IMG/VR virus record: IMGVR_UViG_3300028394_000180
Span: 1-36,085 of that record
DNA: 36,085 bases
DNA from: a virus
Direction: 5' to 3' (one strand)
The number at the start of each line of letters is the position of its first letter. The stretch's first letter is position 1. Below the pieces are notes generated by a model, which made no database searches, was not told the origin of the DNA, and saw only the letters and a program-made list of their open reading frames with translations. Shown here piece after piece: positions 15,234 to 19,495 of the stretch. The translations under genes were made by a program, and so were the position numbers.

Positions 15234-15424
15234 GCTGGCACCTCTTGAGCCAAGATAGCCTGCAAGCCTGCAAGAATTTGCTCAGCTTCTGTACGAGTCA
15301 GGGTGGTGTGGGCTGTACACCCACGCAGTTGCAAGTGGAGCCAAACCCCTCCCTCGTCCCACTGACAGACTGTTACGCGATGACCACATTCGGTGGTGAC
15401 GGTTGTTTCTTGTTCAAGTTTCAT
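15230..15424 (-). CDS. Hypothetical protein with a Cys/His pair, 64 aa
   Basis: A longer in-frame start exists at 15457, but ATG 15424 overlaps the upstream stop as ATGA and gives the natural protein MKLEQETTVTTECGHRVTVC. Residues 'T-ECGH-VtVcqWdeGGVWLHLQLRG' form short beta strands. The C-terminal helix (LTRTEAEQILAGLQAILAQ) is a common 'E-a-qlLagLqail' ending in small phage proteins. CGH and the following Cys could bind metal, but there are too few ligands for a clear zinc site. Confidence 0.6.
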   Translation of the reverse strand: MKLEQETTVTTECGHRVTVCQWDEGGVWLHLQLRGCTAHTTLTRTEAEQILAGLQAILAQEVPA

Positions 15425-15690
15425 GTTGTCACCATTTTGGCTTGCATTTCTTCCCACTCTTTTACGGTCAGCATCTTTACTTCTGTTTCATCCCAACGAC
15501 TAAAGTGATGAAATGCTTCGCAAGCTTGCTTGATGGTCAATGGCAGGGTAGGTCTCCACATTTTTAATGCGCCCACATAAGTGTCCCTACGGATCACGAT
15601 CCACTCTTTGCGACCGTTAGGGTTTGAGCCAACACCACGGTTTCTGCGTGATGTGCGGACTATGGTCCCACATGCTGATGAATATGTCAT
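15421..15690 (-). CDS. Hypothetical protein, 89 aa, first gene after a hairpin promoter
   Basis: A TTG five codons upstream is open, but ATG 15690 is chosen because GAAGGAAA lies 6-7 nt before it. The protein MTYSSACGTIVRTSRRNRGV has a basic N-terminal half, then strand-helix elements (WIVIRRDTYVGALKMW), and LTVKEWEEMQAKMVTT at the end. I do not recognise the family. It is the first gene of a transcription unit starting at the promoter/hairpin element at 15706-15740. Confidence 0.6.
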   Translation of the reverse strand: MTYSSACGTIVRTSRRNRGVGSNPNGRKEWIVIRRDTYVGALKMWRPTLPLTIKQACEAFHHFSRWDETEVKMLTVKEWEEMQAKMVTT

Positions 15691-15705: not shown

Positions 15706-15740
15706 GTAACCGCCTTATTGGCGTAAATGAATTGTAACAC
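15706..15740 (-). promoter_or_regulatory. Promoter with 5'-terminal hairpin, copy 1
   Basis: Read on the minus strand: an extended -10 box GTGTTACAAT (15731-15740), 7 nt (15724-15730), a perfect 4-bp stem CGCC/GGCG with loop AATAA (15711-15723), then GTTAC. The transcript should start at or next to the first stem base, so the hairpin would cap the mRNA. Copies at 16.53 kb and 19.47 kb have the same geometry with different stem sequence. The -35 region is poor, as expected for an extended -10 promoter. Confidence 0.65.
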
Positions 15741-15759
15741 TAAATTAAAACGGGTTGGA

Positions 15760-15776
15760 GTAGGGACTTTCCCTAC
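15760..15776 (-). terminator. Stem-loop after the papain-like gene, possible terminator
   Basis: GTAGGGA and TCCCTAC form a 7-bp perfect stem with a 3-nt loop, 8 bases beyond the stop of the gene at 15785. A T-run (TTTT) on the minus strand starts only about 9 nt after the stem, so an intrinsic terminator would be weak. It sits directly upstream of the copy-1 promoter, where separation of two transcription units would make sense. Confidence 0.4.
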
Positions 15777-15784
15777 CCCTTGTT

Positions 15785-16177
15785 TTATACCTTTGCCCAG
15801 TATCCGTAGACCATCTTGTGTGATGGGTTACCGATGTCGTTTGGTACACCGTCAATGACAGCCACCAAGTGATGCGCCTGCCTTGCAATCACTACGCCCT
15901 TTGGCATATCTGCGCAACGTGCCTTGCGTCCCTCAAACTTTGGGGCTGACATCCAAACCCAACCATGCTGTTGTAAGAAGGGGATGTAAACCTTTTTGCT
16001 AAGACCATTACGAGCAGATTTTTCGTTGCCGTAATCTTTGTTGGCTTGAGCCAATAGTTTGTAAGTGGCTTTGTAGTCAAGGTTCATTGCAATGCAGATT
16101 GATCGAACTACGCAGTCTCCCGCTTTACCTTTAAAGCCAGCGGCTGAGCGGCCTCCGTCGTTGTATTGATAGGTCAT
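15785..16177 (-). CDS. Papain-like-fold candidate (cysteine peptidase-like), 130 aa
   Basis: The pattern GKAGDCVVRSICIAMNLDY (Cys22 at the start of a helix) and, 80 residues later, RQAHHLVAVIDGVPNDI (His102/103, Asp109, Asp114) matches the Cys...His...Asp order of small papain/C39-like proteins. In that family 'GDC--RaiaiA---dY--vy--l' and 'Hl-Av-dG---D' are typical. Such proteins are common in phages, but their substrate is generally unknown. An AAGGAG site precedes ATG 16177. A host-directed or processing protease is possible; so is a catalytically silent relative. It follows the 104-aa gene and shares its transcript. Confidence 0.5.
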   Translation of the reverse strand: MTYQYNDGGRSAAGFKGKAGDCVVRSICIAMNLDYKATYKLLAQANKDYGNEKSARNGLSKKVYIPFLQQHGWVWMSAPKFEGRKARCADMPKGVVIARQAHHLVAVIDGVPNDIGNPSHKMVYGYWAKV

Positions 16178-16188
16178 TGTCGTTCTCC

Positions 16189-16503
16189 TTACTTAGCTGG
16201 AGAAACGCGAATGTCAGCACGACCTTCTTTGCGGAAGGTAGCTAAGACGTCGTCAGTGATGCCGTAGGAGACGCAAAGCTTTTTGTAGTCAACGGTGCCA
16301 GAGACTTCGATGAGCTTCACAGACACGCTGTGCAGTTCGCCCTTGTGCTCGCCTTCGCCGTATTTGTTGGCGATAGCTTCTTTCATTGCCTTGACTTGCT
16401 CAGCCAATGCTTTGGCTTGTTGGTCGAGCACGTAGAGTGCGTCGATGTCAGAAGTGATTGTGGAGATCAGAGCTTCTGTCTGGATCAATGTTGCTGTAGT
16501 CAT
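16189..16503 (-). CDS. Helical hypothetical protein, 104 aa, behind hairpin promoter copy 2
   Basis: An N-terminal helical region (residues 18-48: DIDALYVLDQQAKALAEQVK, then MKEAIANKYG) is predicted to form a coiled coil. A beta-rich part follows (HSVSVKLIEVSGTVDYKKLC) and then a small helical end (ITDDVLATFRKEGRADIRV). 'Lae-vkalKe-i---yGeG-h-G----v-v------vDykkLc-dlgi' is a layout I associate with small phage proteins near recombination or replication genes; the function is unknown. As the first gene behind a dedicated promoter it is probably made in quantity. Confidence 0.65.
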   Translation of the reverse strand: MTTATLIQTEALISTITSDIDALYVLDQQAKALAEQVKAMKEAIANKYGEGEHKGELHSVSVKLIEVSGTVDYKKLCVSYGITDDVLATFRKEGRADIRVSPAK

Positions 16504-16519
16504 GATGTTTGTCTTTCAG

Positions 16520-16574
16520 GTAACCTGCTTATTGCAGTGATTGCATCTTAACACGAAGTTAAAGCGCTTGTGTA
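16520..16574 (-). promoter_or_regulatory. Promoter with 5'-terminal hairpin, copy 2
   Basis: On the minus strand: -35 TACACA (16569-16574), 18-nt spacer, extended -10 GTGTTAAGAT (16545-16554), 7 nt, a perfect 4-bp stem CTGC/GCAG with loop AATAA (16525-16537), then GTTAC. The start codon of the downstream gene is at 16503. An A/T-rich stretch (16575-16600) lies upstream like an UP element. The loop and GTTAC are identical to copy 1 while the stem pairs differ in a compensating way. Confidence 0.7.
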
Positions 16575-16607
16575 GATTTATTTAAATTATTTTTGTAGGT
16601 GCTTACC

Positions 16608-16880
16608 CTAACCCCTCAATAAAAGTTCCATGACCCGTTTCACGGTGACGTTCAGGGCATCGATCTCCTCCATCTTGGCTATGGCCCATGCCCTACGCTC
16701 GCCGTGCCAACCCATCTTGCTCCCTTGGTGGCAGGACTTGCACAAAGCCACGACGGTGTACTGCCTGTGCTGTTTGACATGGTGCGCGTCGCTTGGCCCT
16801 TCTTGGTCGCACACAGAGCAGGGGAGCTCCTTGACCAGCCCAACGTACGCTTTCTCTTTGGCAGTGAGGCTGTTGTTCAC
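16608..16880 (-). CDS. HNH/Ref-type nuclease, 90 aa
   Basis: The sequence has a Cys-X2-Cys (PCSVCDQEGP, Cys21/Cys24), a His-His pair (SDAHHVKQHRQ, His33/34), and a second Cys-X2-Cys-His (CKSCHQG, Cys47/50, His51). An additional GWHGERRAW follows. This is the layout of the phage Ref/RecA-dependent nuclease and related HNH-like families, in which the HH is catalytic and the Cys pairs bind zinc. It is probably a small endonuclease in recombination or DNA processing, consistent with RusA nearby. It could equally be another HNH subfamily. Coupled to the upstream gene (start overlaps its stop). Confidence 0.7.
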   Translation of the reverse strand: MNNSLTAKEKAYVGLVKELPCSVCDQEGPSDAHHVKQHRQYTVVALCKSCHQGSKMGWHGERRAWAIAKMEEIDALNVTVKRVMELLLRG

Positions 16881-17227
16881 AGGGTAGCCTTCTCGACGTG
16901 GCGGTTAGAAGCCTCCATAGAGCGCCATACGGCGATTCTTTCCTGACAGGCTATGAGGAGCCACCGAAGGCGTTCGCGCTCCTGTACGGCTTGTCTGAGG
17001 GCTTGTAGGTGCTCTTTGTAGCGTGGGGAGGCGTAGGCTTCGCGTTCCTGCATGACGGCGGTCTTGTACTCGCCATTCCCATTGGCTTCAGCGTTCTTCA
17101 TCTCCTCTGCCTTGATGGTCTTCCTCAGCTCCTCCATAAACACCTTATTGGCCTCTGCCTCTGCATATTTGGCTGAGTTGGCAATCATGAAATCAACTGC
17201 TTCGTTCGGGTCAATAAGCTTGCTCAT
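16877..17227 (-). CDS. Conserved helical phage protein, 116 aa
   Basis: Almost entirely helical. 'DPNEAVDFMIANSAKYAEAE', then 'VFMEELRKTIKAE', then 'EREAYASPRYKEHLQALRQA' and 'RERLRWLLIACQERIAVWRS' form a run of charged helices with a conserved-looking end 'RLRWLLiaaq-ri-vwRs-eAsnR'. This type occurs in many phages between RusA-like and nuclease genes. Its biochemical role is not known. ATGA overlaps link it to RusA upstream and the nuclease downstream, suggesting joint expression in recombination/replication. Confidence 0.7.
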   Translation of the reverse strand: MSKLIDPNEAVDFMIANSAKYAEAEANKVFMEELRKTIKAEEMKNAEANGNGEYKTAVMQEREAYASPRYKEHLQALRQAVQERERLRWLLIACQERIAVWRSMEASNRHVEKATL

Positions 17228-17652
17228 GTCATCTCCTCAAGTTCTACGATAAGTCGCCCCGGCTTCTTGCCCTCAACCCTAAAAATCAGGATCGGTTGAA
17301 AGAGCTGGTCATTCACGAACAGCGCATCAGCCAGCCCGTCTAGGGCGCCCTTAGCCGCGGCAAGGCAGTTGTCTGCGTCACGCTTACGCTTGTCAGGCAT
17401 GTCAAAGGTAATGGTCAACTTAATCAGTCCACCATGGTGTTTCCACCCCTTGATCTGGTGCTTTGCCAACCACGTGCTTGCCTCTCGGTAGTCGGATCGA
17501 ATCTTGTACAGCTTCCCCCAATGGGTGCCCTTGGCTCGGTTCGGGAACAGCTCCGCTGGCGGGAAGTCTAGCTCGACGCGCAGTACGCTCGTTTTGCATT
17601 CTTTGGACGAGGTCGTCACAAGAGGCTTGTCCTCTGCGTTTAGCAATTTCAT
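17224..17652 (-). CDS. RusA-type Holliday junction resolvase, 142 aa
   Basis: The family's landmarks are present: an N-terminal strand and loop LDFPPAELFPNRAKGTHWGK, the acidic motif KRDADNCLAAAKGALDGLAD (Asp92, Asp94, Asn95, Lys101, Asp105) and the later ALFVNDQ (Asp115). In RusA the aspartates coordinate the metal that cleaves four-way DNA junctions. Length is near the usual 120-140. The first 22 residues lie outside the conserved domain and overlap another frame that also looks coding. It probably resolves branched DNA before packaging. Its ATG overlaps the stop of the 72-aa gene. Confidence 0.85.
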   Translation of the reverse strand: MKLLNAEDKPLVTTSSKECKTSVLRVELDFPPAELFPNRAKGTHWGKLYKIRSDYREASTWLAKHQIKGWKHHGGLIKLTITFDMPDKRKRDADNCLAAAKGALDGLADALFVNDQLFQPILIFRVEGKKPGRLIVELEEMT

Positions 17653-17752
17653 TCTTTACTCCTTGCCACCATGATTGCGCGCTGGCGGAGCCTCGCTCGA
17701 TAGCCTTCATCTCGTACCTGCTCATCCACTCCCGAGCTTCGCACTGTCTCAT
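17420..17752 (-). CDS. Overlapping-frame gene, about 110 aa; conserved-looking N-terminal half
   Basis: In the frame between the 72-aa gene and RusA, codons from ATG 17752 give MRQCEAREWMSRYEMKAIER, then ASAQSWWQGVKNEIAKRRGQ and ASCDDLVQRMQNER. 'cEaR-wl------------W---V---I-k-RG--a---L-------R' is a motif I know from short phage proteins, so this segment looks like real coding sequence. After about residue 60 the frame runs over the conserved RusA start and loses plausibility, so the true protein may end functionally there. A CAGGAG site lies 12 nt before the ATG. Alternatives: a frameshift joining it to the 72-aa gene, or a sequencing indel. Confidence 0.45.
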   Translation of the reverse strand: MRQCEAREWMSRYEMKAIERGSASAQSWWQGVKNEIAKRRGQASCDDLVQRMQNERTARRARLPASGAVPEPSQGHPLGEAVQDSIRLPRGKHVVGKAPDQGVETPWWTD

Positions 17753-17867
17753 GTGTTCTAAGGTCTCCTGTGAGATACAGACATTCGATGGCACAAGCCT
17801 CGGTGTAGGCGTTGCCGTGCCCCTCGCGGATTTCGTCAAGGATTTTTTGGGCGTCACTTTTTGTCAT
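17649..17867 (-). CDS. Small protein, 72 aa, possibly frame-linked to the gene it overlaps
   Basis: ATGA overlaps at both ends (with the 138-aa gene and with RusA) argue for the frame. The first half (MTKSDAQKILDEIREGHGNA, then EACAIECLYLTGDL) reads as a normal helical protein. The last half (THETVRSSGVDEQVRDEGYR and on) looks less natural and is exactly where the other frame becomes convincing. The gene may therefore encode only a short protein, or its N-terminus may belong to a longer product reached by frameshift. No domain is recognised. Confidence 0.5.
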   Translation of the reverse strand: MTKSDAQKILDEIREGHGNAYTEACAIECLYLTGDLRTHETVRSSGVDEQVRDEGYRARLRQRAIMVARSKE

Positions 17868-18280
17868 GCCTTCCTCTTTGCTAAGCCTGCACGGATAGCC
17901 AGCTCGTTGCGCAGGCGGTACTCGTACTTTGTTTTTCGGATCTTCTCATGCTCGTTTGGTTGTAGCTCAGGGTAGTTGTCGAACAGGGCGGCAAACTCTT
18001 GCCACTTGGGTGGGTATCCTCCTGTGTTGGCGCCCCAAGAGATCATGTCAATCTTCATGACCTCGGTGATCGCAAGACGAATCGCTTCTGCGTCTCGCAG
18101 GGCTTCTGTGACGCGAGGCCACTCCTCCGAGGGGGCTTGATGGTGGTAGGCACAGACCCACCGTCCTCCAGTAGAGATCCCACCAGCCATGGGGCAACCA
18201 TTGGCGTAGCATTCAAGGGTGTTGGGGCTGTCATCGACAGCTTCGGTTTTGTTGAATTTTGTAAAGTTGTTCAGTGCCAT
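17864..18280 (-). CDS. Cys/His-containing hypothetical protein, 138 aa
   Basis: Residues 24-47 contain LECYANGCPMAGG...RWVCAYHH, i.e. Cys24-X4-Cys29 and Cys43-X2-His46-His47, a spacing suited to a zinc knuckle. It is followed by a helical region ending in EYRLRNELAIRAGLAKRKA. 'C-a-GCp-pg-i----g----CryH----p--W--vT--l' is a pattern found in phage proteins next to DUF1376 initiators, where a helper or loader role is suspected; function unproven. It follows the initiator by 2 nt with AGGGA as ribosome site. Downstream genes overlap by 4 nt. Confidence 0.6.
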   Translation of the reverse strand: MALNNFTKFNKTEAVDDSPNTLECYANGCPMAGGISTGGRWVCAYHHQAPSEEWPRVTEALRDAEAIRLAITEVMKIDMISWGANTGGYPPKWQEFAALFDNYPELQPNEHEKIRKTKYEYRLRNELAIRAGLAKRKA

Positions 18281-18282
18281 GA

Positions 18283-19056
18283 TTAGTCCCTGTGGTATTT
18301 GCCTTCAATGATTTTTGCGAAGTTCGTTGGCTTGATGATCCATTCAAGATCAGCCAAGAACGGTGGTTTGTCTTTTGATTGGGTTTTGCCAGTCAAGAAC
18401 TTTGAACTTCTAATGTGTTCAAAGAACTGCTTCCACCACGCCAACATGGCGGCATGGGTGACAGTTCCGTCCTTGGACAGATCAATCGCAACCTCCCTCC
18501 ACCTTTGTCTTAGGTAGCCAGCACGAGTGTCGTTCCAGATCTCGATGTGGGGTAGGTTTGGCAAGGTGGTGTGGTACAGAGACAGAACACCTTTGTGATC
18601 ACAACCTAGTATTTTTAAATTCTGTTTTTCGTCAGGTTCGCCTGCTGGCGGACGAACAGTATCTTTAGATACTGTAAATTGGTTCTTGTTTATTGTTTCT
18701 TGTTTATTGTTTGGTTGAACGTCCGTTGAACGGGCGCTACTCCGACGTTCAGCGGATGCTTTACCAGCGCGTGATGCTTGCTGAATTTTGGAGTGAAAAT
18801 GCTTAATTTCTTTGTCCGCACGGTCATTGACCCAACCCTCTTCGCCAAGCTGAAAGAACTCATTAAGCACGTCTTGGACAACCTGAACCTTCTCTCGCAT
18901 ACCAATCTGCTTGGCAACGACCGCTGAATCGACGTTCAACGGGCGTTCGTGAAGATAGTACATGTCGAGCAAGCGACGATAAGCCAAGTCCTCATCTAAA
19001 TCGAGGTGGCGGGTGTGACTGGCGTAGTCACCAATGTTGAATTGATAGTAGTGCAT
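18283..19056 (-). CDS. DUF1376 phage replication initiator-type protein, 257 aa
   Basis: The N-terminus MHYYQFNIGDYASHTRHLDL continues DEDLAYRRLLDMYYLHERPL, the typical DUF1376 (YdaU-like) opening: 'yy-f-iGDy---T-hLs--Ed-aYrrLlD-Yy--e-Pl'. A basic, poorly conserved linker (RRSSARSTDVQPNN) follows. The C-terminal region LPNLPHIEIWNDTRAGYLRQ and RWREVAIDL...WWKQFFEHIRSSKFLTGK is shared with phage replication proteins that deliver the host helicase. ATG 19056 is preferred over an in-frame TTG 24 nt upstream, because the family starts at MHYY/MNYY. The gene itself contains repeats that look like an origin. Confidence 0.8.
   Translation of the reverse strand: MHYYQFNIGDYASHTRHLDLDEDLAYRRLLDMYYLHERPLNVDSAVVAKQIGMREKVQVVQDVLNEFFQLGEEGWVNDRADKEIKHFHSKIQQASRAGKASAERRSSARSTDVQPNNKQETINKNQFTVSKDTVRPPAGEPDEKQNLKILGCDHKGVLSLYHTTLPNLPHIEIWNDTRAGYLRQRWREVAIDLSKDGTVTHAAMLAWWKQFFEHIRSSKFLTGKTQSKDKPPFLADLEWIIKPTNFAKIIEGKYHRD
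18656..18753. other. Origin-like repeat cluster inside the replication gene
   Basis: Within 100 bp of the linker-coding part of the initiator gene there are three elements. The first is a perfect inverted repeat with 9-bp arms (ACAGTATCT / AGATACTGT, 2-bp centre, 18656-18675). The second is two perfect tandem copies of the A/T-rich 14-mer TTCTTGTTTATTGT (18683-18710). The third is iteron-like copies of GTTGAACGTC: 18714-18723 exact, 18725-18734 as GTTGAACGGG, 18744-18753 inverted with one change. A further exact inverted copy is at 18931-18940. The 14-mer period is not a multiple of three, so protein repetition does not explain it. This resembles a lambda-type origin in an initiator gene. Confidence 0.5.
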
Positions 19057-19158
19057 ACCGATCCCATTAACACATCCCAAAAAGAAACTGCGGCAGGCGG
19101 GGATGGATCGCTTTTCGGTACGCTCATGACTTCGTACCTAGCCGTGTTTCAAACCATC

Positions 19159-19362
19159 TTACACGAAGAATAAATCTGGACGCAAGTCTTTTCTTGTGAC
19201 CAGTCCTTGTGTAGCTTTTTCAATCTTAACCGCTAACGCGGCAGACGCAGTTCTACGCTCGTGAATCAACAGAGACATCCATGTCAAGCTGATGCCAAGA
19301 TAGTCCGCCATCTCACCTCGTGCGCCCAACGGCTCCGTCGAAAAATACTCTTGCAATTTCAT
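19159..19362 (-). CDS. YdaS/Cro-like repressor, 67 aa
   Basis: The sequence MKLQEYFSTEPLGARGEMAD continues YLGISLTWMSLLIHERRTAS. It is a helix-turn-helix protein with 'lA--lgis---vs--i-g-R----' spacing. It ends VKIEKATQGLVTRKDLRPDL, the 'IE-ATgG-VtR-dLRPD' signature of YdaS/Cro-like regulators. A longer in-frame start is rejected: ATG 19362 has AAGGA in front and the domain begins there. It is transcribed divergently from the plus-strand operon. A near-perfect palindrome overlaps its own promoter, so autorepression and control of the early operon are likely. Confidence 0.85.
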   Translation of the reverse strand: MKLQEYFSTEPLGARGEMADYLGISLTWMSLLIHERRTASAALAVKIEKATQGLVTRKDLRPDLFFV

Positions 19363-19383
19363 TATTGTTTTTCCTTGGCGGCA

Positions 19384-19412
19384 AGTATACATTAACTTTA
19401 AATTAAAGATAA
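19384..19412 (-). promoter_or_regulatory. Repressor promoter and palindromic operator
   Basis: On the minus strand a TATACT -10 box (19384-19389) lies 20-27 nt before the repressor start. Directly upstream, 19396-19408 is a perfect 13-bp palindrome (CTTTAA-A-TTAAAG on the plus strand). With one mismatch pair it extends to 21 bp (19392-19412). It occupies the -10/-35 spacer, the right place for self-repression. An imperfect copy is found near terS. Confidence 0.6.
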
Positions 19413-19436
19413 CCCCACGTTTCACTCGGGAATGTA

Positions 19437-19495
19437 TTGCCATCATTTTTAACTGCGTGTTAGAATGCTTGCACGTCGATACGACGGTTAAGGAG
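19437..19495 (+). promoter_or_regulatory. Early promoter with 5'-terminal hairpin, copy 3
   Basis: On the plus strand: -35 TTGCCA (one mismatch to consensus, 19437-19442), 18-nt spacer, extended -10 GTGTTAGAAT (19457-19466), 7 nt. Then a hairpin CGTC-GATAC-GACG (19474-19486; a fifth pair can form) and GTTA, running into the AAGGAG ribosome site of the first early gene. Same architecture as the copies at 15.7 and 16.5 kb, but on the other strand. It is the best promoter in the window. Confidence 0.8.

Follow-up and report, generated by a model that had tools for sequence, protein, structure and literature searches.

A covarying hairpin at the predicted 5' end of transcripts from operator-like phage promoters, with a possible role in mRNA protection

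Three promoters in a 36,085-nucleotide stretch of viral DNA (IMG/VR virus record IMGVR_UViG_3300028394_000180, positions 1 to 36,085; hereafter the window) carry, a few bases past an extended -10 element, a short hairpin that appears to form the very 5' end of the mRNA and that recurs, with changing but paired stems, in an uncultured, freshwater-type group of phages. To judge from the compensatory changes among relatives the structure is almost certainly real, and it may well serve to protect the messages that begin with it. The full composite opens with the palindrome TAAY-N5-GTTA and the extended -10; some 7 nt, the last two being pyrimidine-A, lead to a 4-bp hairpin, after which come GTTA and a start codon. 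It is found at 15707-15740 (minus strand), 16521-16554 (minus) and 19457-19490 (plus) with identical spacing. Re-reading of the coordinates thus agrees with the initial annotation, which had described three equally spaced copies here, and the three stems are all fully paired (CGCC/GGCG, CTGC/GCAG and CGTC/GACG, with loops AATAA, AATAA and GATAC). Over the whole window GTGTTANNAT by itself is not significant (3 found vs 0.97 expected) and a 4-bp/5-nt hairpin followed by GTTA gives no more than a weak signal (4 found vs 0.93 expected), while the full composite occurs three times and did not occur at all in 500 dinucleotide-preserving shuffles.

Evidence for the hairpin comes from an alignment (A2) of 48 distinct rows, mostly anchored on the downstream gene and including the window's three sites and three copies of the site-1 type obtained by scanning. 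The 3' ends of the rows were trimmed with knowledge of the stem, four letters being kept after the arm, and internal gaps were placed by MAFFT. All 192 of the 192 pair cells form a standard pair, each of the four pairs shows changes on both sides, and in 42 cells both bases depart from the commonest pair. The covariation score reached 0.658, compared to 0.147 for shuffles and at most 0.07 for slid partners, and RNAalifold recovered the same helix together with the upstream palindrome. Pairing is kept independently of sequence, as in 5'-stabilising stem-loops. The argument that compensating changes favour structure over sequence is therefore strengthened, and the observation that would have spoken against it, stems varying in relatives with loss of pairing, was not made: the stems vary and the pairing stays. 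G-U pairs recur in several families, which fits an RNA structure better than a DNA dyad.

Scans of 2.9 million viral contigs gave the same picture. With the stem left free and the loop fixed as NATAN, 121 matches were obtained, 41 of them with 4/4 Watson-Crick pairs and none with 3/4. When all 13 hairpin bases were left free and the operator, the -10, the preceding A and GTTA were fixed, 62 distinct viral elements were recovered, 56 of which pair 4/4, while the remaining six, of unrelated sequence, pair 1/4. Homologues of the 104-aa and 73-aa proteins encoded downstream of sites 2 and 3 were also fetched by protein and their upstream regions then read, so that the element was not used as a selection criterion. 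In the 104-aa family a 4/4 stem is present in 43 of 46 distinct upstream regions; of the remaining three, two carry CGGTC/GATCG, in which one pair is G-U, and L230 carries a longer stem, CTGAC/GTCAG. Seven stem types were counted among the homologues collected by protein; those of the 104-aa family include CTGC/GCAG, CCGC/GCGG, CGCC/GGCG, CGGC/GCCG, CTGA/TCAG, TTGC/GCAA and CGGT/ATCG, and the site 3 orthologues show CGCC/GGCG, CGTC/GACG and CGCT/AGCG. The gene tree of the 104-aa proteins implies 12 or more changes of stem type, which counts in favour of a maintained structure, though some may reflect whole-cassette exchange and not point changes. MW202545 (Manatee Spring), the one deposited complete relative found, has the element before its homologue. 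Two details of the initial annotation hold for the window's three sites but not in general: the 5-nt loop, which in relatives ranges from 4 to 8 nt with 38 different sequences, and the GTTA directly after the stem, which is GTTTA in many relatives. The conserved parts of the element are the operator, the -10 and GTTTA.

A covariance search over related phages, as the initial annotation had proposed, gave 2-8 matches in every one of 27 phage records, some weak matches being operator only, and the matches precede many different genes. In six gene families the hairpin is present at 92 of 92 promoters (45/45, 25/25, 10/10, 5/5, 4/4 and 3/3), and it is mostly absent before a 2OG-oxygenase-like gene. 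The hairpin would thus seem to be built into most of the promoters of this phage group that are putatively under repressor control. None of the 4227 covariance models of Rfam matches at the three sites, and no convincing copies were seen near relatives of the downstream MSFxVED and RGxxIEHP proteins in phages of cultured hosts, namely Pelagibacter phage Baldr, Pseudomonas phage PA11 and Roseobacter phage CRP-901. A scan of 84,980 species genomes for prophage hosts with the window-type pattern yielded 15 matches whose stems were not checked singly, approximately the chance expectation from the pattern length.

The position of the hairpin was assessed in 185 distinct operator-promoters with a ribosome-binding site and start codon downstream. 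The start of a 4-bp stem is sharply placed (offset 7 after the -10, 121; offset 8, 36; any other offset, 0-15), and with one offset counted per promoter the stem is present in 147 of the 185. Of these 147 stems, 143 are immediately preceded by A and 141 by the dinucleotide CA or TA, which is the signature of a transcription start (-1 pyrimidine, +1 A). Since the stem is pinned 7-8 nt past the -10 and after Y-A, it would begin at +2, and it lies within about a base of the transcription start, as read from sequence, in nearly all of the 147 sites. The distance from stem end to start codon varies, mostly between 12 and 25 nt; a register fixed to the -10 combined with a varying distance to the start codon indicates that the hairpin belongs to the 5' end and not to the ribosome-binding site. 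The earlier view that each mRNA begins with the hairpin is in line with these data, and the predicted hairpin probability in the first 60 nt has a median of 0.92.

The favoured explanation, to which we would give an even chance, is that the element is a 5'-terminal mRNA-protecting hairpin built into repressor-controlled promoters. In the proposed sequence of events, a dyad operator TAAY-N5-GTTA, probably bound by a Cro/YdaS-like repressor, would overlap the extended -10 promoter; transcription would start at an A seven or eight bases past the -10, and the RNA would fold at once, from its second base, into a hairpin of 4-5 bp, with G-U-U-(U)-A and the ribosome-binding site after it. The triphosphate end would keep no more than one unpaired base, and the hairpin would block 5'-end-dependent decay, i.e. 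the action of the RppH pyrophosphohydrolase and then of 5'-tethered RNase E, which would lengthen the life of phage early messages, while the repressor's own message, having no hairpin, would stay short-lived. Both RppH and RNase E require single-stranded 5' ends, and 5' structures hence stabilise mRNA (PMC3997798); the B. subtilis RppH requires at least two unpaired 5' nucleotides (PMC3997798, PMC4227774), and stabilisation of T4 gene 32 mRNA by a 5' hairpin is cited in PMC8948821. A protective hairpin would explain why the position is fixed and the sequence free, and why the loop varies in sequence and length, as in a structural element.

Some points weigh against protection. RppH and RNase E are assumed to be present in the host, the stem is short (median -4.2 kcal/mol), and only some 10% of E. 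coli mRNAs are RppH-dependent (PMC3997798). Moreover, a pure stabiliser would not require conservation as strong as that of the GTTA/GTTTA flank and of the purine-A with which most loops begin, so that a binding protein, or some action on initiation or translation, may be involved. Should protection be the correct reading, the element would be of wider interest: stabilising 5' hairpins were previously known from a few single genes, whereas here they are repeated promoter after promoter in register with the start, and the compensatory repair would constitute natural evidence on the minimal 5' protective structure, 4 bp from the second base. The element would also point to 5'-end-dependent decay as a selective pressure on phages, and, as a promoter part of small size, it may govern repression and message life together.

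The alternative that survives best, though it must be called tentative, is that a phage or host RNA-binding protein, for instance an N-like antiterminator or a regulator of translation, recognises the hairpin and GUU(U)A, which would together make up a phage-wide RNA regulon. The GTTTA/GTTAM flank and the RA loop start are conserved across unrelated downstream genes, 2-8 copies stand before different genes in each genome, and a promoter followed by a short hairpin with a 5-nt loop resembles the boxB layout. The boxB of lambda has a fixed loop, a conserved purine-rich pentaloop to which an N-like peptide binds, and a boxA partner. The present hairpins share with boxB/nut the short stem, the 5-nt loop and the location near early promoters, but their loops span 4-8 nt in 38 sequences, their stems change freely, and the GTTA/GTTTA flank is followed by varied sequence with no common boxA; a boxB/boxA system was ruled out on the lack of a conserved boxA and of a fixed loop. 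In addition, the scanned genes yielded no recognisable N-like protein, and the placement is tied to +1 and not to downstream terminators. A pseudoknot between loop AAC and flank GTT, considered by eye, was dropped because some loops, GATAC, ACTTGC and GCTGAA among them, cannot form it. It is conceivable, if again doubtful, that hairpin and GUU(U)A act as a shared 5' tag marking phage messages, either read by a phage factor or sparing them from decay directed by the phage against host RNA, so that a phage-wide RNA regulon would be coupled to the DNA operator at each promoter. Between the stabiliser and the protein-binding or antitermination site, both of which the initial annotation had named, the stabiliser is favoured, although the data do not separate them decisively.

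It is rather unlikely that the hairpin acts in initiation or translation, by aiding promoter escape, by preventing early pausing or by keeping the leader off the ribosome-binding site. The fixed register to the -10 and the close start codon would suit such a role, but the distance from stem to start codon is variable, strong promoters normally escape without such a hairpin, and the Cro/YdaS-like promoter of the same phage has none.

The DNA operator that the initial annotation had considered for the hairpin itself is disfavoured there, but an operator-like palindrome exists one step upstream, in the promoter spacer. The TTTAAy that had been noted upstream is present at all three promoters; it is, however, one half of this palindrome, TTAAY-N5-GTTA, which overlaps the -10 and is found also at the hairpin-less promoter of the Cro/YdaS-like gene. 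A reading of TTTAAy as a -35 box was ruled out, as it sits in the spacer as a dyad half, and by eye the -35-like TTG elements stand some 16-19 bp before the -10. In alignment A2 there is almost no variation in TAAY-N5-GTTA; this invariance is by construction, and not independent, in the 185-promoter set, since promoters and alignment rows were partly gathered by the palindrome, but it is not by construction in the gene-anchored rows. As in phage repressor operators, the dyad overlaps all three promoters and the regulator's own promoter (19392-19406). The regulator in question, a 67-aa Cro/YdaS-like DNA-binding protein (19159-19362, minus) with matches to Pfam YdaS_toxin (6e-12) and to a PHROG transcriptional repressor (2.6e-8), is the candidate repressor of the palindrome, and TAAY-N5-GTTA is probably the operator of this phage-encoded protein. 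Its promoter (19384-19406, minus) consists of the palindrome TTAAT-TTAAA-GTTAA at 19392-19406 and TGTATACT at 19384-19391, with no hairpin, and the operator TTAATTTAAAGTTAATGTATACT without hairpin is seen at this gene in the window and in the relatives listed. Within the Cro/YdaS family 29 promoters lack the hairpin and 4 have it, a count that is not clean because the palindrome of the opposite-facing promoter was counted too, the four not having been inspected singly.

A second operator, with the inverted repeat of the hairpin serving another dimeric regulator, would fit the location directly downstream of the promoter, yet is very improbable: one genome carries three different half-sites, the stems change freely with pairing kept, and the G-U pairs in several families break the DNA dyad. 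Shared ancestry of a copied cassette with a functionless hairpin is scarcely credible, since unconstrained copying would break pairs and all 192 cells pair although 42 differ from the commonest pair on both sides. The cassettes are nevertheless clear paralogues that have probably been exchanged: in one case (L172, 1343-1394) the site-1 stem type CGCC/GGCG stands before a site-2-type gene, which suggests that promoter-hairpin cassettes have moved between sites.

Each of the three sites in the window has the same architecture. Site 1 (minus) comprises the operator-like palindrome TTAAT-TTAGT-GTTAC (15734-15748), the extended -10 TGTTACAAT (15731-15739), a putative +1 A at 15724, the seventh base past the -10 hexamer and preceded by a pyrimidine, and the hairpin CGCC-AATAA-GGCG (15711-15723; its pairs are predicted with probabilities of 0.97-1.0 when the first 60 nt of the presumed mRNA are folded) followed by GTTA at 15707-15710. 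The downstream 89-aa gene (15421-15690, minus), of unknown function, has no Pfam or PHROG match. Site 2 (minus) has the palindrome TTAAC-TTCGT-GTTAA (16548-16562), the extended -10 TGTTAAGAT (16545-16553), a putative +1 A at 16538, and the hairpin CTGC-AATAA-GCAG (16525-16537; pair probabilities 0.94-0.95), which covaries among homologues collected via the downstream gene, with GTTA at 16521-16524. Its operon contains the 104-aa gene P0001 (16189-16503, minus), with 160 relatives in viral contigs, and as second gene a 130-aa member of phrog_3754 of unknown function (15785-16177, minus). Site 3 (plus) has the palindrome TTAAC-TGCGT-GTTAG (19449-19463), the extended -10 TGTTAGAAT (19458-19466), a putative +1 A at 19473, the hairpin CGTC-GATAC-GACG (19474-19486) and GTTA at 19487-19490, and precedes the 73-aa gene P0002 (19502-19723, plus), with 24 relatives in viral contigs.

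The element may be a variant of known 5'-terminal stabilising hairpins, and an earlier description is possible; none like it was found in the searchable literature, many subscription papers lying outside the search, where only related kinds (PeSL, SAS/ESAS, put and T4 gene 32) were met. PeSL (promoter early stem-loop) cassettes of T4-like phages are repeated early promoters with a stem-loop before varied genes. This layout of a repeated promoter and stem-loop cassette is shared, but PeSLs are called promoter-terminator motifs in the title of a 2014 paper (reference list of PMC4503421), a title from which their terminator role is taken, whereas the present stem-loop runs from +2, covaries and has no U-run terminator. 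The 5' stem-loops of E. coli ompA and papA, which hinder RppH and RNase E, are alike in occupying the 5' terminus, where no more than one base is left unpaired, and in placing structure over sequence; those are single host leaders, whereas here a short covarying hairpin with a GUU(U)A flank, of which stabilisation is presumed, stands at many operator-controlled phage promoters. The T4 gene 32 leader is likewise a phage message with a 5' stabilising hairpin (cited in PMC8948821). That hairpin has a special CUUCGG loop and serves one gene, in contrast to the variable loops and many promoters seen here. The SAS and ESAS of cluster K mycobacteriophages recur ahead of some of the non-structural genes, roughly half of the copies having inverted repeats (PMC3203893). 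They resemble the present element in standing ahead of a subset of phage genes, but SAS is a conserved 13-bp sequence at the ribosome-binding site and the ESAS repeats are 17 bp; neither is linked to a -10 or described as a covarying hairpin, and the SAS GGGATAGGAGCCC is not part of the present element. The putL RNA of HK022, approximately 70 nt with two stem-loops, acts on RNA polymerase (PMC9378689). It too is a phage RNA structure just downstream of an early promoter, whereas here there is a single hairpin of 13-16 nt, not two stem-loops, with the start codon mostly within 25 nt.

A few further observations were made. Two of the hairpin promoters are preceded by a second hairpin, of the form TAGGG-N5-CCCTA (around 15757-15780 and 16596-16620, both minus), which many relatives have as well; it shows no clear U-run and may be the preceding gene's 3' end or terminator. 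An exact TTAAC-N5-GTTAA palindrome, TTAACATTTTGTTAA, at 2561-2575, far from the early promoters and a short way upstream of a minus-strand gene that starts at 2554, may be due to chance or be a further operator. Directly 3' of the Cro/YdaS-like gene, at 19073-19148 (minus), there is a full-length match to the int-alpA RNA family RF02996 (31.6 bits, below the cut-off of 35.8) that ends in a terminator-like hairpin with a T-run, and two relatives have the match as well (L258, 3573-3647, and L264, 3576-3652, both minus). Among the genes at approximately 52000-57457 of MW202545.1, short phage open reading frames bear product names ('tick anticoagulant protein' is one) that look spurious. Finally, a relative phage record (G008) contains a strong match (92.6 bits) to the Betaproteobacteria-1 RNA family RF02932 beside three tRNAs (L310, 6672-6788, minus), which suggests a betaproteobacterial host for the phage group.

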